Below are positions 10,836 to 34,717 of a stretch of DNA of 36,701 bases, one piece after another (the stretch's first letter is position 1; each line of letters begins with the position of its first letter). The position numbers were made by a program, and so were the translations under genes. This DNA comes from Acidimicrobiales bacterium (GTDB lineage: Bacteria > Actinomycetota > Acidimicrobiia > Acidimicrobiales > Acidimicrobilacustridaceae), in contig JANZZE010000008.1 in the NCBI GenBank assembly GCA_026419545.1, positions 1-36,701 of the forward strand, in the 5' to 3' direction. Under the pieces are notes generated by a model, which saw only the letters and a program-made list of their open reading frames with translations, did not search any database and was not told where the DNA came from.

Positions 10836-12772
10836 CGCGCACCTCGGAGCAGTACCGGGGCCTCGGAGCCCCTGCGGAGGTCCTGGCCGGTTCCCTGACT
10901 CCCGCCAGCGGGAGGAGTCGTCGAGGCCACGATGTGCTCGAGGCCATACCCCGTGCATGCGCCGCAGTCGTAACAGGGAGTCCACCGGCAATCCGGCAGA
11001 CCCACCTCGGCGAGCGCGTCGCGCCAGTCCTGCCACAGGAAGTCCTTGTGCAGACCGGCCGACAGGTGATCCCAGGGAAAGACCTCGTCCTCGGTGCGGT
11101 GGCGATGGACATACCAGTCCACGTCGAGACCGTGCATGGACATCGCATCGATCCACATCGAATAGTCGAACTTCTCGCTCCATTCTTGGAACGTGCCACC
11201 CTTGCGCCACACCTCCTCGATGACCGCGCCGATCCTGCGATCCCCACGGCTTGCGATCCCCTCCACAAGCGAAGCCTTGGGATCGTGCCACTTGAGCTGA
11301 ACCGCCCGATCCTTCCGGAGAGCATCCCTCAGCAATCCGATCTTTCGATTGAGTTCGGCCACGGTGTTCTGACCGAACCACTGAAACGGCGTGAACGGCT
11401 TGGGCACGAACCCCCCCACCGAGACCGTTATCGACGGCGAGCCGTGGTACCTGCGGCCTATCTCGATGCAGTTCCGCGCGAGTTCGGCAATGCCAAGGGT
11501 GTCAGCATCGGTCTCCGTGGGCAGCCCAGTGAGGAAGTACAGCTTCATGCGCCTCCAGCCCTGGGAATAGGCCGACTCGACCGCTCCGTAGAGATCTTCT
11601 TCCCGGATCAGCTTGTTGATGACCTTGCGGAGCCGCCAGGTACCTGCTTCAGGCGCAAACGTCAGCCCCGTACGTCGAGCCTTTTGGATCTCCGACGCGA
11701 TCTGCACGGTAAATGCATCGACCCGCAGGCTGGGCAACGAGACCGACACCGGATTGCAGTTCGGCTGCTCCTCGATAATGCCCGCAACCACCTCGTCGAT
11801 CGAACTGAAATCGGCAGTGGACAGGGACGTGAGCGCGACCTCGTCGTAGCCGGTCCGTCGCAGACCGTCACGGACCATGGTGCGAACCTGTTCGGCCGGG
11901 CGTTCCCTCACGGGCCGAGTGATCATCCCGGCCTGGCAGAACCGACACCCACGGGTACACCCCCGAAACACCTCGACATTCAACCGGTCATGCACCACCT
12001 CGGTCAGGGGAACGAGTTGACGCTTCGGGTATGGCCAACTCGCCAGATCCGAGATCGTTCGCTTCTCGACGAGCTCGGGGACCCCCGGGAACCGCGGCGT
12101 GACCGCCACCAGACGTGGGCCGTCGTATGTGACCTCATACAGCGAGGGGACGTAGACCCCCGGGACCTTGGCCAGCTCCCGCAGCAGGTGCAACCTCGAC
12201 CCTTCGGACCGGCCACTTGCCTTCCATTCCGCCACCACCTCGGTGATCTCCCCAACGACCTCTTCGCCATCGCCCAGCACGACTGCGTCCAGGAAATCAG
12301 CGAGCGGCTCTGGGTTGTAGGTGCAGTGACCGCCGGCCAACACGAGGGGGTGCTCTGGTCGCCGCTCAGCGCTGCGGACCGGGATCCCGGCCAGATCGAT
12401 CAGGTTGAGCACGTTGGTGTAAACGAGCTCAGCCGAGAGGTTGAAGGCCAGTACGTCAAAGGCGCTCGCAGGGAGATGGTTTTCGATCGAAAACAGGGGC
12501 AACCCGTGGGCGCGCAATTCCGACTCGAGGTCCTCCCAGGGCGCGTAGGTCCGTTCTGCCAGCGCATCGGGCCGTTCGTTGAGGATCTCATAGAGGATCT
12601 GCAACCCTTGATTGGGTAGCCCAATCTCATAGGTGTCCGGGTAGGTCAGCAGCCAAGACACCTTTCTCGGATCGTGATCAGGGCGAACAGATCCATCTTC
12701 AAGACCGATATAGCGAGCTGGCTTTTGGACCTTGGCCAGCAGATTTTCCAACTGAGGCCAGATCGAATTCAT
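10832..12772 (-). CDS. TIGR03960-family B12-binding/radical SAM protein
   Basis: The protein has 646 residues. The N-terminal half (about 30-200) is a cobalamin-binding-like Rossmann region (WLLTYPDTYEIGLPNQGLQILYEILN; PLVLAGGHCTYNPEPLADFLDAVVLGDGEE). The radical SAM core starts with C272-x3-C276-x2-C279 (GCTRGCRFCQAG), the 4Fe-4S site that cleaves S-adenosylmethionine. Later blocks include GLTFAPEAGTWRLRKVINK and MKLYFLTGLPTETD. A C-terminal C600-x2-C603-x2-C606 (CYDCGAC) may bind a second cluster or zinc. Substrates are not known. The gene stands 12 nt after rodA and overlaps the DUF2344 gene, joining the elongasome genes to rne. Confidence 0.92.
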   Translation of the reverse strand: MNSIWPQLENLLAKVQKPARYIGLEDGSVRPDHDPRKVSWLLTYPDTYEIGLPNQGLQILYEILNERPDALAERTYAPWEDLESELRAHGLPLFSIENHLPASAFDVLAFNLSAELVYTNVLNLIDLAGIPVRSAERRPEHPLVLAGGHCTYNPEPLADFLDAVVLGDGEEVVGEITEVVAEWKASGRSEGSRLHLLRELAKVPGVYVPSLYEVTYDGPRLVAVTPRFPGVPELVEKRTISDLASWPYPKRQLVPLTEVVHDRLNVEVFRGCTRGCRFCQAGMITRPVRERPAEQVRTMVRDGLRRTGYDEVALTSLSTADFSSIDEVVAGIIEEQPNCNPVSVSLPSLRVDAFTVQIASEIQKARRTGLTFAPEAGTWRLRKVINKLIREEDLYGAVESAYSQGWRRMKLYFLTGLPTETDADTLGIAELARNCIEIGRRYHGSPSITVSVGGFVPKPFTPFQWFGQNTVAELNRKIGLLRDALRKDRAVQLKWHDPKASLVEGIASRGDRRIGAVIEEVWRKGGTFQEWSEKFDYSMWIDAMSMHGLDVDWYVHRHRTEDEVFPWDHLSAGLHKDFLWQDWRDALAEVGLPDCRWTPCYDCGACTGYGLEHIVASTTPPAGGSQGTGQDLRRGSEAPVLLRGAR

Positions 12773-13918: not shown

Positions 13919-15936
13919 CAGTCGCTAGACCTCACGACCGACGGCTTCGAACCTTCTTCGGTCTGCTGCCCGGCAAGGGGCTCGAACACCCGCCTCGCAA
14001 CTGGGGCGGCGACATTGCCACCGAACCCCGCCTCCTCCAGGACGATGGAAAGGCAGTACTTGTACTCCGGGTCGGGAGCACAGGCGACGTACAAGGCGGT
14101 ATCGGCCTTGTTGTTGACCTGGGCGGTACCGGTCTTGGACAGCACGGGAAACGCCTTCGTGTCAAAGCCACGGAACGCGTTGTATGCGGTACCTGTGAAC
14201 ACCCCACCGCTGGACGCCACGCCGAGGAGGCCTTGCCTGATCGGCTCATGAATCGCAGCTGGCATGTCGGCCGTATAGGTCACCTCGGGCTCGATCTCCC
14301 GAATCACCGCAGGATGCGCCGGGTCGGCGGCTTCGCTAGCAGGTTGGAGGATCCGCATCACCACCGTTGGCTTGTGATGTACACCCTGATCGACGAACAT
14401 CGCATAGGCGTTGGCCAACTGGAGTGGCGTTGCGAGCATGTCACCCTGACCGATCGCCAGGTTCACGCTGTCTCCCGGATACCAGGTCGGGTCGCCCTTT
14501 GCCTTCTGGTCAGGGGGGAGCGACTCCCAGGTCCGTCGCTTCCAATCAGCGTCGGGCACGTTCCCAGCCGACTCGCCGGGAAGGTCAATACCGGTCTTGG
14601 CCCCGAACCCGAACGTGCGGGCGGCACTTTGTAACCCCTGCCCCCACCGATCGGCCTCCCAAAAGAACCGGTCCCCAATCCAATAGAAGAACACATCGCT
14701 GGACACGGTAAGTGCGCTGGAGACGTTGACCGTGCCATGACCTTGGCGGTTGGGGTTCTGGCGGGTGCAGTTGCCGCTGCACTTCATGAGCTGGTACACG
14801 CCGCCATCGACGTATGAGGTATTCCCGTTGATCATGCCAGAACTCATTGCCCCGAACGCGGTCACCAACTTGAAGGTCGATCCCGGCGCGTACTGGCCCG
14901 AAATCGCCCGGTTGACGAACGGGTTCTCCGCTGGATTGCGGGTCAGCTCCTGGTATCGCTCCGTGCTGATTCCGTTGACGAACTCACTCGGGTCATAGGT
15001 CGGATACGAAGCAAGAGCCAGTACGCGACCGGTGCCCGGCTCCAGCATCACCGCGGACCCAGCAGGTGCTGCGGCAATCTTGCCGTCGCTGGTGTAGCCG
15101 CCCCGAACCAGGTCGAGTTGCTCGGCTAGGGCCTTCTCCAGGCTGACCTGGATGTCGATGTCGATGCTGAGCTGCACGTCGTTGCCGGGACGCGGCGGCC
15201 GGTGCTCGACAGTTCGCACGACCCTGCCCAGCGAATCGACCTCGATCCGGCGGACTCCAGGTGTTCCGCGTAGTTCATCCTCGTAGACCCGCTCCACACC
15301 TTCCTTGCCGATGTTCGAGTCCGGCTGGTACGGCTTCGGATTCTCTTTCGGATGGTCGGGGGTTCCCTGCCGGGCACGCAGCTCCTCCTCATTGATCCGC
15401 CCGACATAGCCGACCACATGAGCGGCCGCCGCGCCGTAGGGGTACGAACGCACCGCTTCTCGGTTGACTGCAATGCCCGGAAACTCCTCTGCCCGCTCCG
15501 ACAGAAAGACGTAGAGGTCCTCGGGCACGTCAACGGCGATCGGCACCGGTTGGAGCGGGTTGTACTGCGGGTCGTGCAACCTGCGCTCCAGCGAACGAAC
15601 CTTCGTGGGCCTGCCCGAGCGGGTCAGCTCCTGGGCGATCCGGAAAAGGATCTCGTCCCGCTTGCCCGACGAATCGAGCTCATGGGGATTGGCTGTTACC
15701 ACCAAGGAAGTCCGATTGTCGACGATCACCTTGCCGTTGCGATCGAGAATCCGGCCACGGGGTGGTTCTTCGTAGACCACTTTTGTCGTGTTCTGGACCG
15801 CAACGTCTTGATATTGGCCCGCTGACATGACCTGCAGGTACCAGAGCCGAGCAAAGAGTGCGCCGAACATCGAAACGATGACGACGCCGAGGATGCTGAG
15901 ACGTAGTCGTGGCGATTCGGCGTCCATACCTCTCAC
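13918..15936 (-). CDS. mrdA: Penicillin-binding protein 2 (elongation-specific transpeptidase)
   Basis: The protein has 672 residues. One membrane anchor (12-36, LSILGVVIVSMFGALFARLWYLQV) is followed by the non-catalytic pedestal domain (RGRILDRNGKVIVDN at 60-74; KEGVERVYEDELRG) and the transpeptidase domain with S353-T-F-K356, S412-x-D414 and K601-T-G-T. These are the SxxK, SxN-type and KTG boxes in the form used by PBP2/MrdA. It crosslinks side-wall peptidoglycan with RodA. GTG at 15936 overlaps the mreD stop (GTGA). An ATG at 15927 is the alternative start. The 670-residue length is normal for actinobacterial PBP2. Confidence 0.95.
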   Translation of the reverse strand: MRGMDAESPRLRLSILGVVIVSMFGALFARLWYLQVMSAGQYQDVAVQNTTKVVYEEPPRGRILDRNGKVIVDNRTSLVVTANPHELDSSGKRDEILFRIAQELTRSGRPTKVRSLERRLHDPQYNPLQPVPIAVDVPEDLYVFLSERAEEFPGIAVNREAVRSYPYGAAAAHVVGYVGRINEEELRARQGTPDHPKENPKPYQPDSNIGKEGVERVYEDELRGTPGVRRIEVDSLGRVVRTVEHRPPRPGNDVQLSIDIDIQVSLEKALAEQLDLVRGGYTSDGKIAAAPAGSAVMLEPGTGRVLALASYPTYDPSEFVNGISTERYQELTRNPAENPFVNRAISGQYAPGSTFKLVTAFGAMSSGMINGNTSYVDGGVYQLMKCSGNCTRQNPNRQGHGTVNVSSALTVSSDVFFYWIGDRFFWEADRWGQGLQSAARTFGFGAKTGIDLPGESAGNVPDADWKRRTWESLPPDQKAKGDPTWYPGDSVNLAIGQGDMLATPLQLANAYAMFVDQGVHHKPTVVMRILQPASEAADPAHPAVIREIEPEVTYTADMPAAIHEPIRQGLLGVASSGGVFTGTAYNAFRGFDTKAFPVLSKTGTAQVNNKADTALYVACAPDPEYKYCLSIVLEEAGFGGNVAAPVARRVFEPLAGQQTEEGSKPSVVRSSD

Positions 15937-24897: not shown

Positions 24898-24972
24898 CGG
24901 GGAGTAGCGCAGCTTGGTTAGCGCGCCTGCTTTGGGAGCAGGAGGCCGCGGGTTCAAATCCCGCCTCCCCGA
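24898..24972 (+). tRNA. tRNA-Pro (anticodon TGG)
   Basis: A 75-nt cloverleaf with acceptor CGGGGAG/CTCCCCG, a D arm with GCGC stems, anticodon stem CCTGC/GCAGG with loop TTTGGGA (anticodon TGG) and T arm GCGGG-TTCAAAT-CCCGC. The discriminator is A. The CCA end is not encoded. A TATCGT box lies 10 nt upstream (24882-24887). Confidence 0.97.
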
Positions 24973-24986
24973 CGAAACAAGTTGCT

Positions 24987-27425
24987 TCAGATCTCGCCGT
25001 TGCGCTGCATCAGGTGGAAGGTCAGCCAGCCAGGAACGACCGGCAGCCAGAACGTCACGCCGCGGAACAAGAACACCGACGAAACGGCCTTGTCCGAGCT
25101 CATCCCCAGCCCGGTGAGTGCAGCGATGAGGGCGGCTTCGACTGCGCCAAGGCCCCCAGGCGTGGGTGCCACGATCGCTACCGACGAAGCGATCAGGTAG
25201 GCAACGCCAATGTGTGCGATCGACACGCCTCCACCGAAGGCCTCGATCGAGCACACCAACGCCCCGAGAAAACCGAGCGTCACGACAGTTGAGCCACCGA
25301 TCAACATCGCGATCTTGCGAGGGCGCTTTGCCAGCTCGACCAGGCCGGTCTTGGCTTGGGCCAAAAGCGGAGCGACTCGTCTGACCACCATGCGCCGGGT
25401 GAACGGCAATGCCAGCAGGAGACCCGCGACCGCCATGACCGCAACAGCGACAAGCACGATCGTCCCCACCGGCGAGGACGAAGGGGCAGGCTCGCTCGTC
25501 AGCTCGGTCTCAACCGACGTGGCTGAGCCGACCCACAGGAGGAATACCCCGAGCAACAGCAGGTGCGCGACCAAGCCGCCGAGCGCGTTGAGGCCCACGC
25601 CTGCCACCGCCACACCCGAGTCCACGCCTCTGCGTTGGAGAAACCTGGTGTTGAGCGTCATCCCGCCAACCGATGCAGGAGCTAGCACATCAACGAAAGC
25701 CGCAGCGACCTGTGCCCGCATCATCGGGAGCATCGGTACCCGGTCAGGAACTGACCCGGCCATTGCGATACCGGCGCCGATATAAGTCACCCCCTGGGAG
25801 AACAAGAGTGGCACGAGCCATTGCCACTTTGCATCAGCAAGGGTTCGACCGATGTCTGAGACCTCTGCGAAGCGTGGCAGAAGGGCATACAGGGCCAACG
25901 CGAAGACCGCCATGCCGACGATCGTTCGGGGTTTGAACCTCGCTAGCTCTTCATAAGAAACCTCATCGATTCCGGTGGCATGCTGCACCTCGGACCGGAG
26001 TTCGTCGAGCAAGCCTTCGCGCTCACCGAGGGCTTTGCGGGTCTCGGTGCGCAGAGCCAACGGTTGCAACACGGAAAGCGAGGCACCCAACGTGTCGCGA
26101 CCCAGTACGGAAACCGCGGCGTGCACTGCCCGCGGAGCGCCAACCTCGATCGCGCTCGAGCAGAGCAGTTCTGCAACATCGGTCCGAAGCTGCAGGTCCG
26201 TCGCAGCTATCTCGCCGTAACCGAAATCAACAAGCTTTGGCCGTCCGTCATCGTCCCGAATGACATGGGCCAAGCGCAGGTCGCGGTGAGCGATACCAGC
26301 CCTCTGCAGCTGCACGACCACTTCCCACAGCCTGCACAAGGTGTCGTCATCGATCGCCTTCCCTTTTCCTTGAAGGTGCTCGCCGCCAAGGTGCTCGAAC
26401 GCGAGCACCATGCCTCCGGGGTTAACCTCGGCCAGTGCGGTCAGGTCCGCGGTCGGCACACCCCTATCGGCCGCGTACAGCGCAACCAGCGCTTCGTGTT
26501 CGACCGATCGGCGAAGGGTCGAGAATGGCTGTTCATTGACGGCGTCCCGGAGACGAAGCCGCCGATAGAGCTGGACCAACCGATCGGCTTCGGCACGGTC
26601 CGGCGGGAACACCTTCACGAAATGTCGGTTGCCGTTCCGTTCGACGCAGCAATAGGTCGTCGACCCACGGACTCCCGACGCCAGGAATTCGAGTCTCGCC
26701 GGATCCAGGCCGGCCGAACACAAGGCGCGTACCACCGCAGTGCCAGTCGGACGCCGGTTCGGCGAACCGAACACCAGCAGGATCAAAGCGCCGAGGAGGT
26801 AGCCCAGGACGATGGCTATTGCCACGTCATAGGGCGAGTCAGCACCTGAGGCGATCCGGGTGAACGCAGCAAGCGCGATGAGGCCGACTCCGAACCGTCG
26901 CCACGGGCGATCTAAGAACGATGCCAGGACCGTGAGAACGGCCGAGGCGCCAGCGAGGAATCGGGCGCCGGGATAGGCAACGGCCCGCAGCTCTCCGAGC
27001 TGACCGGGTAGCGCGACCTCGGAGGAGAGCGCCGAGCTGACCCCGAACATCGCGATCGCCCCTGCACCGGCGGCCAAGGCCACCATGAACATCGTGCGCA
27101 ACCGACCGATCACAACAAGCGCTATCACGACGGCAACCGGCCCCACGATCCCGACAACTTGCCCCAGCGCGATCAGGATTGTCGCCAACACCTCAGGCAC
27201 GGCATCGGCGAGGTGCACCACATCCCTTTCAGCGCCGCTCAAGCCACCGCGGAAAACTGCTGCAATCAGCACCGCTGCCACGAAAGCCACGGTTGCCTCC
27301 ACTGCGCGCACTGCGTCCCCGGCGGTGCGGACGAAGGCTGGTTGGCTCGGCTCGATGATCTCCACAGTCGGGCTCGCTGCGGCGGCGTCCGACCCGTGAT
27401 TACGGTTGGCTCGAATACTCGGCAC
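24987..27425 (-). CDS. PAP2-like/kinase-like/flippase three-part membrane fusion protein
   Basis: The protein has 812 residues from the GTG at 27425, chosen because GGAG lies 7 nt upstream and a TACGGT box lies 29 nt upstream. A longer in-frame start at 27566 has no support. Residues 40-220 form about six membrane helices arranged like a PAP2 lipid phosphatase, but the PSGH motif reads YPGAR (151-155) and the SRxxxGxHxxxD motif reads TRIASGADSPYD (189-200), so both catalytic histidines are gone. Residues of about 247-425 are kinase-like: Lys271 in HFVKVF, Glu311, HRD at 380-382 and DFG at 400-402, with His387 in place of the usual metal-binding Asn. Residues 500-805 form a YbhN/MprF-type (UPF0104, TIGR00374) flippase domain with the signature PTPGGLGAVE (753-762). 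Substrate unknown. Transport of a lipid controlled by the kinase-like part is a reasonable guess only. Confidence 0.85.
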   Translation of the reverse strand: MPSIRANRNHGSDAAAASPTVEIIEPSQPAFVRTAGDAVRAVEATVAFVAAVLIAAVFRGGLSGAERDVVHLADAVPEVLATILIALGQVVGIVGPVAVVIALVVIGRLRTMFMVALAAGAGAIAMFGVSSALSSEVALPGQLGELRAVAYPGARFLAGASAVLTVLASFLDRPWRRFGVGLIALAAFTRIASGADSPYDVAIAIVLGYLLGALILLVFGSPNRRPTGTAVVRALCSAGLDPARLEFLASGVRGSTTYCCVERNGNRHFVKVFPPDRAEADRLVQLYRRLRLRDAVNEQPFSTLRRSVEHEALVALYAADRGVPTADLTALAEVNPGGMVLAFEHLGGEHLQGKGKAIDDDTLCRLWEVVVQLQRAGIAHRDLRLAHVIRDDDGRPKLVDFGYGEIAATDLQLRTDVAELLCSSAIEVGAPRAVHAAVSVLGRDTLGASLSVLQPLALRTETRKALGEREGLLDELRSEVQHATGIDEVSYEELARFKPRTIVGMAVFALALYALLPRFAEVSDIGRTLADAKWQWLVPLLFSQGVTYIGAGIAMAGSVPDRVPMLPMMRAQVAAAFVDVLAPASVGGMTLNTRFLQRRGVDSGVAVAGVGLNALGGLVAHLLLLGVFLLWVGSATSVETELTSEPAPSSSPVGTIVLVAVAVMAVAGLLLALPFTRRMVVRRVAPLLAQAKTGLVELAKRPRKIAMLIGGSTVVTLGFLGALVCSIEAFGGGVSIAHIGVAYLIASSVAIVAPTPGGLGAVEAALIAALTGLGMSSDKAVSSVFLFRGVTFWLPVVPGWLTFHLMQRNGEI

Positions 27426-27432
27426 TCGACGA

Positions 27433-27492
27433 CTCCGGCGAGTTGGCTTGATCAACCGTACTCGGATCCAGAAGGTCTGCGGTCGACCGCAG
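27433..27492 (-). promoter_or_regulatory. Promoter and palindromic operator candidate of the fusion gene
   Basis: On the minus strand, in order: a perfect 16-bp palindrome CTGCGGTCGACCGCAG (27477-27492), a -10-like TACGGT (27455-27460) and a GGAG ribosome site (27433-27436). The palindrome covers about where a -35 box would lie, a usual place for a repressor or activator to bind. Confidence 0.5.
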
Positions 27493-27615
27493 CTAGCGAG
27501 GATGCACCCGACAAGATTGCGCCAACGAATCTCCCGGCAAGCCGGACGCCAGCATCTGGGCTGCAATCAGCACCCCGGGCGATACAAAACGTCTCAGCCC
27601 GGGCCTTGATTCAAG

Positions 27616-27687
27616 AGCGGGTGACGGGAATCGAACCCGCATAACCAGCTTGGAAGGCTGGGGCTCTAGCCATTGAGCTACACCCGC
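27616..27687 (-). tRNA. tRNA-Gly (anticodon TCC)
   Basis: A 72-nt cloverleaf on the minus strand: acceptor GCGGGTG/CACCCGC, D arm GCTC...GAGC, anticodon stem CCAGC/GCTGG with loop CTTCCAA (anticodon TCC) and T arm GCGGG-TTCGATT-CCCGT. The discriminator is T. The CCA end is not encoded. Confidence 0.97.
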
Positions 27688-27743: not shown

Positions 27744-30104
27744 TCAGCCACCGAACAACGTTCGTCGAACCAATGACGGATCCGATTCGATGTCTCCGTC
27801 ACGGAACCGAAGAGGCCTCGTCTGTTTCGCGGCGTACGCCTCGGTCCCGTCGACATGGTGCAAAGACTCCGGGTCACCAGATTGACCGTAGACGAGCAGG
27901 CCAACCCCGCGGGGCCCGTCGGCTGTCAGCTCGACCGCCATGAGGAAACTCGTGCCATAGGTGACGAGATACCCCCCGTCACCGAGCCCCGTCCTAGCCC
28001 GGCCTGGGAGAGCGACAGGCGGGACCGGCGCGGGCTCAAGTGACGCTGCGGGGAGCGCCCCCCAGGGGGCGAGCACGTTGAGCACGCCATCACCTTCGCC
28101 CCCACCATGCACCGGGATCCGACGGTCGCCACGGCTGGCCCACTGGATGTCGCCAAGCGGCGCGTCGAGCGGTACGCCCGCACGGTCGAGCACCCGGACC
28201 GCGTGACCCATAGCGTGGACGACCGGGTCGTCACCATCATCGTCGGCGTGTGCGGCCAACCCGTACGGCGTACCGACTGGGTCGTCAGGATCGAATGCCG
28301 CAGCAAAGAGCGTTCCGGCATCAACCCACGCACTCACGGGGAAGCCTGCCATGAACTCCCGCCAAAGCGCGGCTCCACGCGATTCGATCGAGAAGCATCG
28401 GTCCCAGCGCTCGAGGATGTCCGCTGCCTGGACCAGGTCGGCGTCGTGGCCTCCGACCGTCACCTTGCCGACCGCACGACAACGACTAATCACCGCATCG
28501 ACGAGCAGTTCTGCGCTGAGGCTTGCGTTGTCGAACACCGCTGCGACCAGGTCATCCAAGGTGACGTTCCCCCGCCGGGCCAGGGCGGCGGCCCGGCGGA
28601 GGTTCTGTCGCGTCCGAAGGCTTTGCGGCGTTGCTTCAAGGCCGTTCAACGGCGAGAACCCCTCGAGCCGGACCTGGGGGTTCGGGAGCCAGTGCGAGTC
28701 GTTGGCGTTGAGCACGAAGTCACGCCGCTCGATCTGGGGCAACTCACCAAACGGTTCAAGACCAGGCGAACGGGCGCCGTCAACGACGACCCACTCGTCG
28801 TCGGGATCGCTGCCATCGAGCAGCGCGACCCGGTTCTCGTAGAGCAACGCGGCAACGAAGTCGTCCCGCAGACGGGAACGGAAGCGTTCACGAGCTCCTG
28901 CGCTCAGCTTCGGGGTCGCAGATGCATCACAATACCAGACCCTTCCTGACCGGTCGGCTGCCACCGTGTTGACCCAAGGCATCCCCTGCACCTCCCGGAA
29001 CACGGCTTTGAATGCGTCGAGGTCGGTCGCCCGATCCATCCCGATGAACTGGCGCAGGAATCCGGTGTTGTCCAGATTTGCGTCGCGGTAGGTGAATCCG
29101 ACTTCAAGCCCCCAGCCGAGCAAGGGAAGATTCACCATCGGCCCGTAATGGCTCGACCAGAGCGTGCGCGAAACAAAGCCAATCGAGCCGTCGTCCTCCA
29201 GCACCTCGATCGTGTAGGTCTCCGGGACGCAGTCACGAACCTCGTCGCCGTAGCGATAGCGGGTCGGGTCACCCGGCAACAGCTCGAGTCGGTAAAGCGT
29301 GAACCGATGACCGCAAGAAAAAGTGTGGGCCCAAGCCACGCCTTCGTTGAACCCCATCTGAACCCCGGGCGTACCGAGAAGAGAAACGCCGTAAACGTCG
29401 AGCTCGCCCGGGATGGTCAGGTGGCATTCCCAGAATCGAGCCTCGCCATACCAGGGGAAGTGTGGGTTGGCGAGGACCATGCCGTGGCCAGACGTGCTGA
29501 TGTCCCCGCCCACCGCCCAACCGTTGCTCGCCCCGGGCGGCGCAACCAGCGCGTCAAGGGGCGAAGGAGGCACCGGACCGTCCGGTCCGGGTGCCTCAGC
29601 GCGGCCGATCAACGGAGCAAGATTCCGCCCACTGGCCATGAGCGCGACGTCACCGAGATACGCATACAGATCGAGCACGTCGATCGGGCGGATCCAGTCT
29701 GCGTCCCGACACCACTCAGGTAGGGCACCGCGTTGCCTTGCCTCGGCGACCCAGCTGTTGTAGCCGGCGACGTAGCCCTCAACCATGGCCTCGATCTCCG
29801 GTGGCTGCGCTTCACGCAGATCCACAGCTCGATCTGCAACCCCAAGGGCCAGGTAGCCGAAGTCGCTGGCAAGGTGCGCGCCATCGCGGCCTGGTCCGTG
29901 GAAACGGGCACGCTCACTTCGCACCTTCACGATCTGATCGGCGATCGTTGCCAGGTTGTCCCGAGCGCACGCCCAACCTTGGCCGAACCCCAAGCCACCC
30001 CAGTCATCGGCTCGGATGTGCGCGACGCCATGGGTCGTCCAGCGGATCTCGGCTGCGAACCGCCCACCAACTGCTTCTCGCTCCACCGCCTGTTCACTGA
30101 TCAC
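27744..30104 (-). CDS. Penicillin acylase family (PvdQ/aculeacin-acylase-like) Ntn hydrolase
   Basis: The protein has 787 residues. The enzyme class hydrolyses amide-linked acyl chains (acyl-homoserine lactones, lipopeptides, beta-lactams) after self-cleavage into two chains. The predicted cut is before Ser193 in PPGA/SNGWAVGG, which becomes the N-terminal nucleophile. GMVLANPHFPW follows as in PvdQ relatives, and LNANDSHWLPNP carries the oxyanion/catalytic Asn region. LRTRQNLRRA and the C-terminal RTGLGDGGYLVTYGTSFLMAVEL are also family-like. GTG at 30104 has AGGGGG just upstream. Neither this start nor the longer one at 30143 gives a signal peptide, although family members are usually exported. 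The gene is divergent from the CBS gene and shares a 122-bp promoter region with it. The substrate cannot be told from the sequence. Confidence 0.85.
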   Translation of the reverse strand: MISEQAVEREAVGGRFAAEIRWTTHGVAHIRADDWGGLGFGQGWACARDNLATIADQIVKVRSERARFHGPGRDGAHLASDFGYLALGVADRAVDLREAQPPEIEAMVEGYVAGYNSWVAEARQRGALPEWCRDADWIRPIDVLDLYAYLGDVALMASGRNLAPLIGRAEAPGPDGPVPPSPLDALVAPPGASNGWAVGGDISTSGHGMVLANPHFPWYGEARFWECHLTIPGELDVYGVSLLGTPGVQMGFNEGVAWAHTFSCGHRFTLYRLELLPGDPTRYRYGDEVRDCVPETYTIEVLEDDGSIGFVSRTLWSSHYGPMVNLPLLGWGLEVGFTYRDANLDNTGFLRQFIGMDRATDLDAFKAVFREVQGMPWVNTVAADRSGRVWYCDASATPKLSAGARERFRSRLRDDFVAALLYENRVALLDGSDPDDEWVVVDGARSPGLEPFGELPQIERRDFVLNANDSHWLPNPQVRLEGFSPLNGLEATPQSLRTRQNLRRAAALARRGNVTLDDLVAAVFDNASLSAELLVDAVISRCRAVGKVTVGGHDADLVQAADILERWDRCFSIESRGAALWREFMAGFPVSAWVDAGTLFAAAFDPDDPVGTPYGLAAHADDDGDDPVVHAMGHAVRVLDRAGVPLDAPLGDIQWASRGDRRIPVHGGGEGDGVLNVLAPWGALPAASLEPAPVPPVALPGRARTGLGDGGYLVTYGTSFLMAVELTADGPRGVGLLVYGQSGDPESLHHVDGTEAYAAKQTRPLRFRDGDIESDPSLVRRTLFGG

Positions 30105-30226
30105 TGTTCCCCCTTTTTGCGCGATTGGCCGCCATGGTGCCATCAGGGGTCAGCCTGCGCGGCACGGATCGCCGGAATGGGGTACACAGGGTGGCGGGAA
30201 TGAGAGAGGAGCCCAAAGGAGGCGCC

Positions 30227-33033: not shown

Positions 33034-33153
33034 TCACCTCACGCCCAGCGGCAGGTTCGGCGTTGGCGCCTCGGTGGTCGGAACTGATGGCGAGCTCCTT
33101 GTCCTAGACGACGGAACGACTCGTTCAGCAGTCGTCGTGACAACAGCCGCTAG

Positions 33154-33227
33154 CGCCCCCGGCAGGATTCGAACCTGCGACCATCGGATTAGAAGTCCGG
33201 TGCTCTGTCCATCTGAGCTACGAGGGC
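33154..33227 (-). tRNA. tRNA-Arg (anticodon TCT)
   Basis: A 74-nt cloverleaf on the minus strand: acceptor GCCCTCG/CGGGGGC, D arm GCTC/GAGC, anticodon stem CCGGA/TCCGA with loop CTTCTAA (anticodon TCT) and T arm GCAGG-TTCGAAT-CCTGC. The discriminator is G. The CCA end is not encoded. The top anticodon-stem pair 27:43 is C-A, a mismatch. The other four pairs are standard. Confidence 0.96.
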
Positions 33228-33350: not shown

Positions 33351-34325
33351 TCAGGTCGGGTTCGAGGTCTGCCGGCGACGCGAGGCCACGAGGAGGCCGG
33401 CTCCACCAAGGGCGAGACCAGCTCCCGCAACTGCCAGTGGGAAGACAACCCCCGAACCGGTGCGCGGTAGCGCCCCAGTCGCGGCGGTGGTGGTCGGCGT
33501 GAGGCTGTTGACCGCACCGGCAAGCGCTGTGACCTGAAGGTCAGCGGACAAGACTTGGACCTGCCCTGCCAGGTCCAAACCGGTGAGCGTCACGGAATGC
33601 GCGCCGACGAGGAAGTCAACCGGGACCGTGAACGTGTGGACAATCGTGCCGACCTGGTCGGCAATTGCCGTCCCCACATCGAGAGGATCAGAGTTCAACG
33701 TGACCTGAACGGACGTGCCAGGCATCCACCCTGTCGAGGTCACCGTGACCTGACCCCCCTGCGGCACCGTGGTCTTGTCGAGGGTGATGCTCGGTCCAGC
33801 CAACGTGGTCGGCGGGGTCGGGCCGGTCGTCGGAGGAGCGCTCGTCGTCGAGGACGTCGAGGACGTGACCGTGCTCGTGGTTGGCAAGGACGAGGTCGAC
33901 GGGGGCGCGGTCACGGTGAAGGTCTCCGGCTCGTACACGAAACCCCCGCCAACGAGTGCACACGTTACGTAGAAGTCGATGGCGCCCGGAGGGGTGCCCA
34001 TAGGGATGACGTAGGACAGGGACCAGTCGCCCGTCGCGTCGGGGTTACCCGAGGCCAGGATGGCGCTACCGGTCGGATTCGGCACGGTACCGAGGTTGAC
34101 CACGGCGCCTTCGATACACCCAGTGATCGACGTGAACGTCACGGTCGTACCGGGATCACCCGCGGTCGGCGACATCGTCATGGCGGGGGTTGTGATGATG
34201 CCCTTTGGCAGAGCCACGGCGCCGCCGGCCGAGAAGGCGAGGAGCAGCACGGAAACCAACGGGGCTGCGGCGCATCGGCAAACCCGGCGAGCCCAGGGTT
34301 CCAAAACGTTCGGTCGCGTCGTCAT
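33351..34325 (-). CDS. LPXTG-type cell-wall-anchored surface protein
   Basis: The protein has 324 residues. A signal peptide (about 1-39) with basic N-terminus and LVSVLLLAFSAGGAVAL core is followed by two small beta-sandwich-like modules (about 45-140 and 178-270), separated by a Thr/Ser/Pro-rich linker (about 140-178). The second module (ITLDKTTVPQGGQVTVTSTGWMPGTSVQVTL) resembles Ig-like bacterial surface domains. The sorting signal is complete: LPRTG at 286-290, a hydrophobic helix (about 294-314) and the RRRQ tail. A sortase would link it to the cell wall, but no sortase gene is present here. The ATG at 34325 has only a weak GA-rich site upstream. The ligand and role are unknown. Confidence 0.85.
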   Translation of the reverse strand: MTTRPNVLEPWARRVCRCAAAPLVSVLLLAFSAGGAVALPKGIITTPAMTMSPTAGDPGTTVTFTSITGCIEGAVVNLGTVPNPTGSAILASGNPDATGDWSLSYVIPMGTPPGAIDFYVTCALVGGGFVYEPETFTVTAPPSTSSLPTTSTVTSSTSSTTSAPPTTGPTPPTTLAGPSITLDKTTVPQGGQVTVTSTGWMPGTSVQVTLNSDPLDVGTAIADQVGTIVHTFTVPVDFLVGAHSVTLTGLDLAGQVQVLSADLQVTALAGAVNSLTPTTTAATGALPRTGSGVVFPLAVAGAGLALGGAGLLVASRRRQTSNPT

Positions 34326-34475: not shown

Positions 34476-34553
34476 GGTGGCCGTAGCTCAGGCGGTTAGA
34501 GCACCAGGTTGTGGCCCTGGAGGTCGGGGGTTCGAGTCCCCTCGGCCACCCCA
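34476..34553 (+). tRNA. tRNA-His (anticodon GTG)
   Basis: A 78-nt sequence including G at -1 (34476) and an encoded CCA (34551-34553). Acceptor GTGGCCG/CGGCCAC, anticodon stem CCAGG/CCTGG with loop TTGTGGC (anticodon GTG), T arm GGGGG-TTCGAGT-CCCCT. G-1 faces C73, the identity element of histidine tRNA. A TATGCT box lies upstream (34457-34462). Confidence 0.97.
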
Positions 34554-34641: not shown

Positions 34642-34717
34642 GCGCCTCTAGCTCAATTGGCAGAGCAACGGACTCTTAATCCGCAGGTTCTGGGTTCGAG
34701 TCCCAGGGGGCGTACCA
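34642..34717 (+). tRNA. tRNA-Lys (anticodon CTT)
   Basis: A 76-nt sequence including an encoded CCA (34715-34717). Acceptor GCGCCTC/GGGGCGT, D arm GCTC/GAGC, anticodon stem ACGGA/TCCGC with loop CTCTTAA (anticodon CTT), T arm CTGGG-TTCGAGT-CCCAG, discriminator A. Two departures from a regular cloverleaf are seen: the end pair 1:72 is G-T (G-U in RNA), and the top anticodon-stem pair 27:43 is A-C. A TAGAAT box lies at 34598-34603. Confidence 0.95.

Follow-up and report, generated by a model that had tools for sequence, protein, structure and literature searches.

A membrane protein of Actinomycetota joining a PAP2-fold domain, a kinase-fold domain and an MprF-type flippase domain

Overview

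A single protein of 812 amino acids (aa), encoded in the window (the whole analysed stretch of 36,701 nucleotides from an Acidimicrobiales bacterium), joins a PAP2-fold membrane domain, a kinase-fold domain and an MprF-type flippase domain, and this observation is confirmed. The three-part fusion had been proposed in an earlier note, and each of its folds was checked here by structure prediction and comparison with the PDB. The note regarded these as parts normally seen apart; however, the fusion is the standard architecture of a protein family in many Actinomycetota. A literature search for the three-part architecture, in which few subscription journals were covered, found no work on it, and the family of PAP2 phosphatase, cytosolic kinase and MprF-type flippase in actinobacteria is apparently undescribed. 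In RefSeq its members (Streptomyces and others) carry the name 'lysylphosphatidylglycerol synthase transmembrane domain-containing protein', which covers the flippase part only.

Gene and genomic setting

The coordinates given in the note hold, with the minus strand as the coding strand; read on the plus strand, the interval has many stops. Its reading frame is open up to a TTG at 27566 (859 aa); the GTG at 27425 is a plausible start since a GGAG is found 7 nt ahead of it. The residues singled out from the sequence were all located in the 812-aa numbering (YPGARF at 151, TRIASGADSPYD at 189, K271, HRD at 380-382, H387 and PTPGGLGAVE at 754).

24987-27425, minus strand: coding sequence, 812 aa, fusion of PAP2 relic, kinase and flippase; GTG start at 27425; supported by homologues
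27433-27436, minus strand: GGAG, possible ribosome-binding site for GTG 27425, 7 nt before it; read by eye
24898-24973, 27615-27687, 33153-33227, 34477-34553 and 34642-34717: tRNA genes around the fusion gene, for Pro, Gly, Arg, His and Lys, respectively

The gene is flanked by tRNA-Pro(TGG) on one side and tRNA-Gly(TCC) on the other, with tig-clpP-clpX-folC downstream and a penicillin-acylase-family gene upstream. The copy in the nearest relative (genome G028, locus L157) likewise lies between Pro(TGG) and Gly(TCC) tRNAs, the Gly being inverted. A copy with an intact PAP2 domain in G270 (L155) is followed by Arg, His, Lys and Leu tRNAs; the tRNA neighbours common to this copy and the window are too weak as evidence to establish positional orthology. 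A form with PAP2-like and kinase parts and no flippase was found in G024 (L158) near tig-clpP-clpX, like the window gene. Two further proteins encoded nearby on the minus strand were a 799-aa penicillin-amidase-family protein (27744-30143; PvdQ acylase model 524 bits, below the cut-off of 950) and a 324-aa protein with a weak match to an LPXTG-like C-terminal anchor signal (33351-34325). The window genome holds two other PAP2 genes over cut-off, elsewhere than at the fusion locus. On one of its contigs (L161, G000:C344), a PAP2-superfamily gene and a PF03706 gene lie at most 3 kb apart (11738-11968 and 14506-15429).

Distribution of the family

A single-sequence query of the genome contigs with the 812-aa protein found no relative; an alignment query did detect relatives. 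They were present in 29 of 37 genomes of the same taxonomic family as the window, most matching over the full length, in 76 of 395 genomes of its class and in 37 of 296 Actinomycetota genomes sampled, as well as in named Geodermatophilus, Blastococcus, Nonomuraea, Streptosporangium and Streptomyces genomes. Because full-length relatives are so widespread, the 812-aa protein is neither a chance ORF nor an assembly chimera. The motif table compiled from these sequences has 149 rows, 148 of them distinct (L146 duplicates the window copy).

In the Pfam search the flippase part of the 812-aa protein was strong, and the PAP2 and Pkinase matches were weak and below their cut-offs; the folds were therefore tested by structure. 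The full-length model was built with 45 homologues (pLDDT 86.4, pTM 0.74). Residues 40-220 without a PAP2 fold, or a kinase region without a kinase fold, had been named as refuting outcomes; both were tested and neither occurred. Judged by the predicted structures, the weak PAP2 and Pkinase matches are real homologies.

The N-terminal PAP2-fold domain

26748-27368, minus strand: six-helix PAP2-fold membrane domain, residues 20-226, predicted to be catalytically dead; Pfam PAP2 weak, structure of the domain alone matching 5jki at Z 14.7
26958-26975, minus strand: relic of PAP2 motif C2, YPGARF, residues 151-156 (PSGH in intact relatives)
26826-26861, minus strand: relic of PAP2 motif C3, TRIASGADSPYD, residues 189-200, His replaced by Asp (R-x5-H-x3-D in intact relatives)

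Pfam PAP2 scored 22.9 bits on the 812-aa protein (E 7.6e-5; cut-off 27.2). The N-terminal domain was also modeled by itself, using an alignment that contained no canonical PAP2 (pLDDT 88). In the PDB comparison its top 21 rows were all PAP2-superfamily phosphatases, with Z from 14.7 to 8.1, and the best other fold reached Z 6.5. Fold and helix order are those of the lipid phosphatases B. subtilis PgpB (5jki, Z 14.7) and A. aeolicus LpxE (6ebu, Z 13.2); G6PC1, PgpB, Aur1, acid phosphatases and LPP1 were also matched. Foldseek ranked the same kind of enzyme first, with weak E-values (0.03). However, unlike these phosphatases and some of its own relatives, in which the motif set is full (L121, L122, L126, L129 and others), the 812-aa protein holds none of the catalytic motifs KX6RP, PSGH and (S/A)R-x5-H-x3-D. 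The proposal of a PAP2 fold whose catalytic histidines are replaced is thus borne out by the domain on its own, with all three motifs lost, and since they are missing the protein should not be a phosphatase.

All three PAP2 motifs are kept in 7 of the 149 rows, which mostly form one cluster on the tree (three changes). Four rows combine them with a complete kinase site and the flippase, i.e., the near-copies L121 and L122, L126 and L129. For L126 all Pfam matches were over cut-off (PAP2 62.4, Pkinase 35.1, APH 28.8 and LPG_synthase_TM 100.3 bits); PAP2 scored 68.0 bits in L121 and 55.4 bits in L129, with kinase motifs complete in both. These PAP2-intact relatives show that genuine PAP2 enzymes are the group to which the fused N-terminal domain belongs; the window copy is related to them but dead.

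The loops with the PAP2 motif positions contain 0-1 Arg, and most of the Arg residues are in the loops of the other side and in the linkers that lead to the kinase. This distribution would put the former PAP2 site on the exterior and the kinase in the cytosol. In bacterial PAP2 enzymes the active site is established to be on the outside.

The kinase-fold domain

25986-26747, minus strand: cytosolic kinase-fold domain, residues 227-480, of Bud32/RIO/WaaP type; Pfam and structure
26613-26615, minus strand: K271, ATP-binding lysine
26499-26501, minus strand: E309, helix-C glutamate partner
26265-26288, minus strand: catalytic loop HRDLRLAH, residues 380-387; His387 at the usual Asn position, as in WaaP
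26220-26228, minus strand: DFG, residues 400-402; helix-F Asp416 only 16 residues later

Pfam Pkinase scored 16.7 bits on the 812-aa protein (E 0.005, below cut-off), and phmmer of the kinase part against the PDB returned generic kinases only, through the catalytic loop. The kinase fold that the note claimed is well supported by structure: residues ~223-495 adopt the two-lobe fold (Z 13-16.5) with Lys, helix-C Glu, HRD Asp and DFG Asp in place (K271, E309, D382 and D400). The KEOPS kinase Bud32/PRPK was the best match (human PRPK and Bud32, Z 16.5-15), followed by YihE, RIO kinases and WaaP (Z 14.1). The NCBIfam model for Bud32 (TIGR03724) gave 26.4 bits, far below its curated cut-off of 125; Bud32 is a cytosolic protein with a role in tRNA modification, unlike the membrane-bound protein described here. 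WaaP, an LPS kinase of the WaaP/Kdo kinase family (PF06293), resembles the 812-aa protein in its fold, in the His at the Asn position, in a DFG-like motif and in having no activation segment. Its substrates are of a membrane lipid-sugar class, but it is not fused to a flippase. PF06293 had no match in the 812-aa protein and matched 9 of 45 relatives (E ≤ 0.01); those for which individual scores were listed gave 16-21 bits, just under the cut-off of 21.3.

The Asn that serves as second Mg2+ ligand in the catalytic loop is replaced by His387, which had been taken as a defect of the kinase. However, in P. aeruginosa WaaP it is His168 that coordinates the second Mg2+ instead of Asn, and the H168A mutant fails to support growth (PMC6147952); the loop of E. 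coli WaaP, HRDCYICH, is alike. His387 is therefore no evidence of a dead kinase, as the His in WaaP binds Mg2+ and is essential. The parallel, if it holds, rests on position in the fold, and His387 is common to only one relative: among the 149 rows, His for Asn with the other kinase residues intact was seen only in the window protein and in its nearest relative G028 (54% identity over kinase and flippase).

D400 and D416 are 16 residues apart, and a helix (410-428) starts 8 residues after the DFG; for WaaP the residue numbers D188 and D206 give a spacing of 18 (PMC6147952). With only 16 residues between the DFG Asp and the helix-F Asp there is no activation segment, and in this respect the domain resembles the described Rio/Bud32/KdoK cluster (PMC1821047) and not the regulated protein kinases. 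This bears on the possibility that the domain is a regulatory Ser/Thr protein kinase acting on envelope proteins and fused to a flippase by chance. Although Pkinase is the best-scoring Pfam kinase model in several relatives, the short spacing speaks against this, and so does the structural ranking, in which PRPK/Bud32, YihE, RIO2 and WaaP all stand above PknB (Z 13.6). RIO and Bud32 can act on proteins, so that a regulatory protein kinase becomes less probable and is best called unlikely. We infer that the domain is a kinase for small molecules or lipids rather than a regulatory protein kinase, and it is probably working as such.

If K, E, D, N and D are all required, the kinase residues are intact in 37 rows; the kinase is degenerate in 109 of the 149. 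Many relatives have lost HRD and/or DFG and still keep the whole domain, so that in those lineages the domain must have some role other than catalysis. One related genus (g2; L011, L012, L014, L016, L020, L025 and similar) has a kinase part of full length from which HRD and DFG are entirely gone (HGGI, DLA etc.). Such members favor the earlier reading, in which the PAP2 and kinase parts would both be pseudo-enzymes, sensing lipid and ATP and together gating the flippase; the loss of all PAP2 motifs and the His in place of Asn at 387 also agree with it. However, the window protein retains K271, E309, HRD and DFG, WaaP is functional with a His in the corresponding place (PMC6147952), and the kinase is the best-conserved part among members that have lost the PAP2 motifs and kept the kinase. 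A pair of pseudo-enzymes therefore appears possible though doubtful for the window protein. Its description as a 'kinase-like switch' did not hold up well, given that there is no activation segment and that 37 of 148 relatives have the complete set of catalytic residues (39 when His is allowed). The same two features make a catalytic role of the kinase the more likely one in the window branch, as far as sequence can tell.

The flippase domain

24990-25934, minus strand: flippase domain, residues 498-812, LPG_synthase_TM, MprF flippase fold; Pfam and structure
25137-25166, minus strand: PTPGGLGAVE flippase signature, residues 754-763

Pfam LPG_synthase_TM matched the 812-aa protein at 110.5 bits (cut-off 33.4), and the region aligned with MprF in the PDB at Z 21-24 (rmsd 3.6-4.0 over ~275 residues), so that the proposed MprF-like flippase is upheld as to family and fold, with flipping itself predicted. 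MprF, the bifunctional lysyl-PG synthase/flippase (PF03706), has the same fold and the PTPGGLGAxE signature. However, the C-terminal aminoacyl-PG synthase domain of MprF is absent from the 812-aa protein, which ends after the flippase and carries the kinase and the PAP2 relic in front instead. Accordingly, NF033480 matched with positions 6-295 of its 841 only (56 bits versus 600).

It could be argued that the protein is an MprF-like resistance or lipid-export flippase and that in the window lineage its other domains are both vestiges. The flippase is indeed the strongest family match and is present in nearly all members, and the identity of the PAP2 part is low. Within members that have lost the PAP2 motifs and kept the kinase, identity was 0.32 for PAP2 (lowest), 0.56 for the kinase (highest) and 0.51 for the flippase, and low conservation of PAP2 is as expected after catalysis is lost; within PAP2-intact members the PAP2 part was highest, at 0.55 (three sequences, indicative). 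However, the kinase is as well conserved as the flippase. Moreover, some relatives end after the kinase and have no flippase (L008, L013, L015, L024 and L140), and the first four keep a PAP2-like domain with an intact kinase, which implies that the front part is functional in its own right. Vestigial front domains are hence improbable indeed. Several members, in Streptomyces and in large genomes (L141-L143, L079, L085, L091, L094 and L096), are longer, at ~900-950 aa, and have an insertion between kinase and flippase, the profile matching them in two pieces.

Stand-alone PAP2 genes next to the fusion

The dead fused PAP2 domain is often accompanied by a separate canonical PAP2 gene next door, an observation that is new here. 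Flanking DNA was scanned for canonical PAP2 motifs, near meaning within 1.3 kb of the family gene. There were 18 canonical copies in 363 kb of near flank versus 1 in 578 kb of far flank, and in a same-locus comparison of kinase-intact loci with long flanks there were 8 in 53 kb near and 1 in 161 kb far. Of ten neighbor ORFs examined with Pfam, eight were PAP2 at 57-75 bits and two were not (L038:5308-5874 and L062:3783-4943); Pfam also confirmed the neighbor PAP2 at L041, L043 and L089. Among 92 neighbor ORFs, 11 were of the PAP2 family; the next families had 2, and no other family recurs more than twice. An earlier conclusion of little conserved context, drawn from gene-order clustering by BLAST coverage with four adjacent PAP2 genes, was dropped when the motif scan showed many more.

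An adjacent PAP2 gene was found at 12 of 32 loci with lost PAP2 motifs and an intact kinase, at 2 of 92 with lost motifs and a degenerate kinase, and at none of the 7 PAP2-intact fusions (adjacency versus kinase state, Fisher p 9e-7, kinship ignored). When kinase state and adjacency were compared in phylogenetic pairs there were 5 supported pairs, with a median sign-test p of 0.25, and the link of an intact kinase with an adjacent PAP2 gene is not independent of descent. The neighbor genes lie on either side and either strand of the family gene, and adjacency required at least 8 gains or losses on the tree; it thus arose or was lost repeatedly. Four stand-alone PAP2 proteins were about 35-51% identical to the intact fused domains, with best scores of about 110 bits for three of them, versus 32-45 bits for an unrelated PAP2 of the window genome. 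No adjacent PAP2 gene was present in the window region or at the G028 locus.

Possible mechanism and significance

The reading we favor, with moderate confidence, is that the protein couples a flippase to a cytosolic kinase for a lipid or lipid-sugar and retains the PAP2 part as a scaffold. On the cytosolic side, the kinase would phosphorylate a membrane lipid or a lipid-linked sugar, and this lipid would be moved across the membrane by the flippase domain within the same chain. In those relatives that keep it, the PAP2 site on the exoplasmic side may then remove the phosphate, and the ancestral machine could have run a cycle of phosphorylation, flip and dephosphorylation. In the window protein the PAP2 part would persist only as a scaffold or as a lipid-binding entry; should a phosphatase step still be required, an unlinked gene might provide it.

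The intact or gene-neighbor phosphatase in relatives points to an undescribed cycle of membrane-lipid phosphorylation and flipping. A more specific version, which we consider rather unlikely as it stands, is a lipid-phosphate cycle within one chain, in which PAP2 would dephosphorylate outside, the flippase carry and the kinase rephosphorylate inside, or the reverse. This would serve actinobacterial recycling of polyprenol or another carrier lipid, with the phosphatase step moved to another gene in the window lineage.

The return of carrier lipids to the cytosolic leaflet, and their rephosphorylation, are still under investigation. DedA/UptA and DUF368/PopT proteins were only recently named undecaprenyl-phosphate translocases (PMC9876793, PMC12893004). 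The 812-aa protein offers a natural example of a membrane phosphatase domain that has been retained although dead. Its family of phosphatase, kinase and flippase, with a phosphatase gene repeatedly adjoining when its own is dead, is a concrete and testable candidate for the carrier-lipid cycle in Actinomycetota, and members occur in culturable Streptomyces, Nonomuraea and Geodermatophilus.
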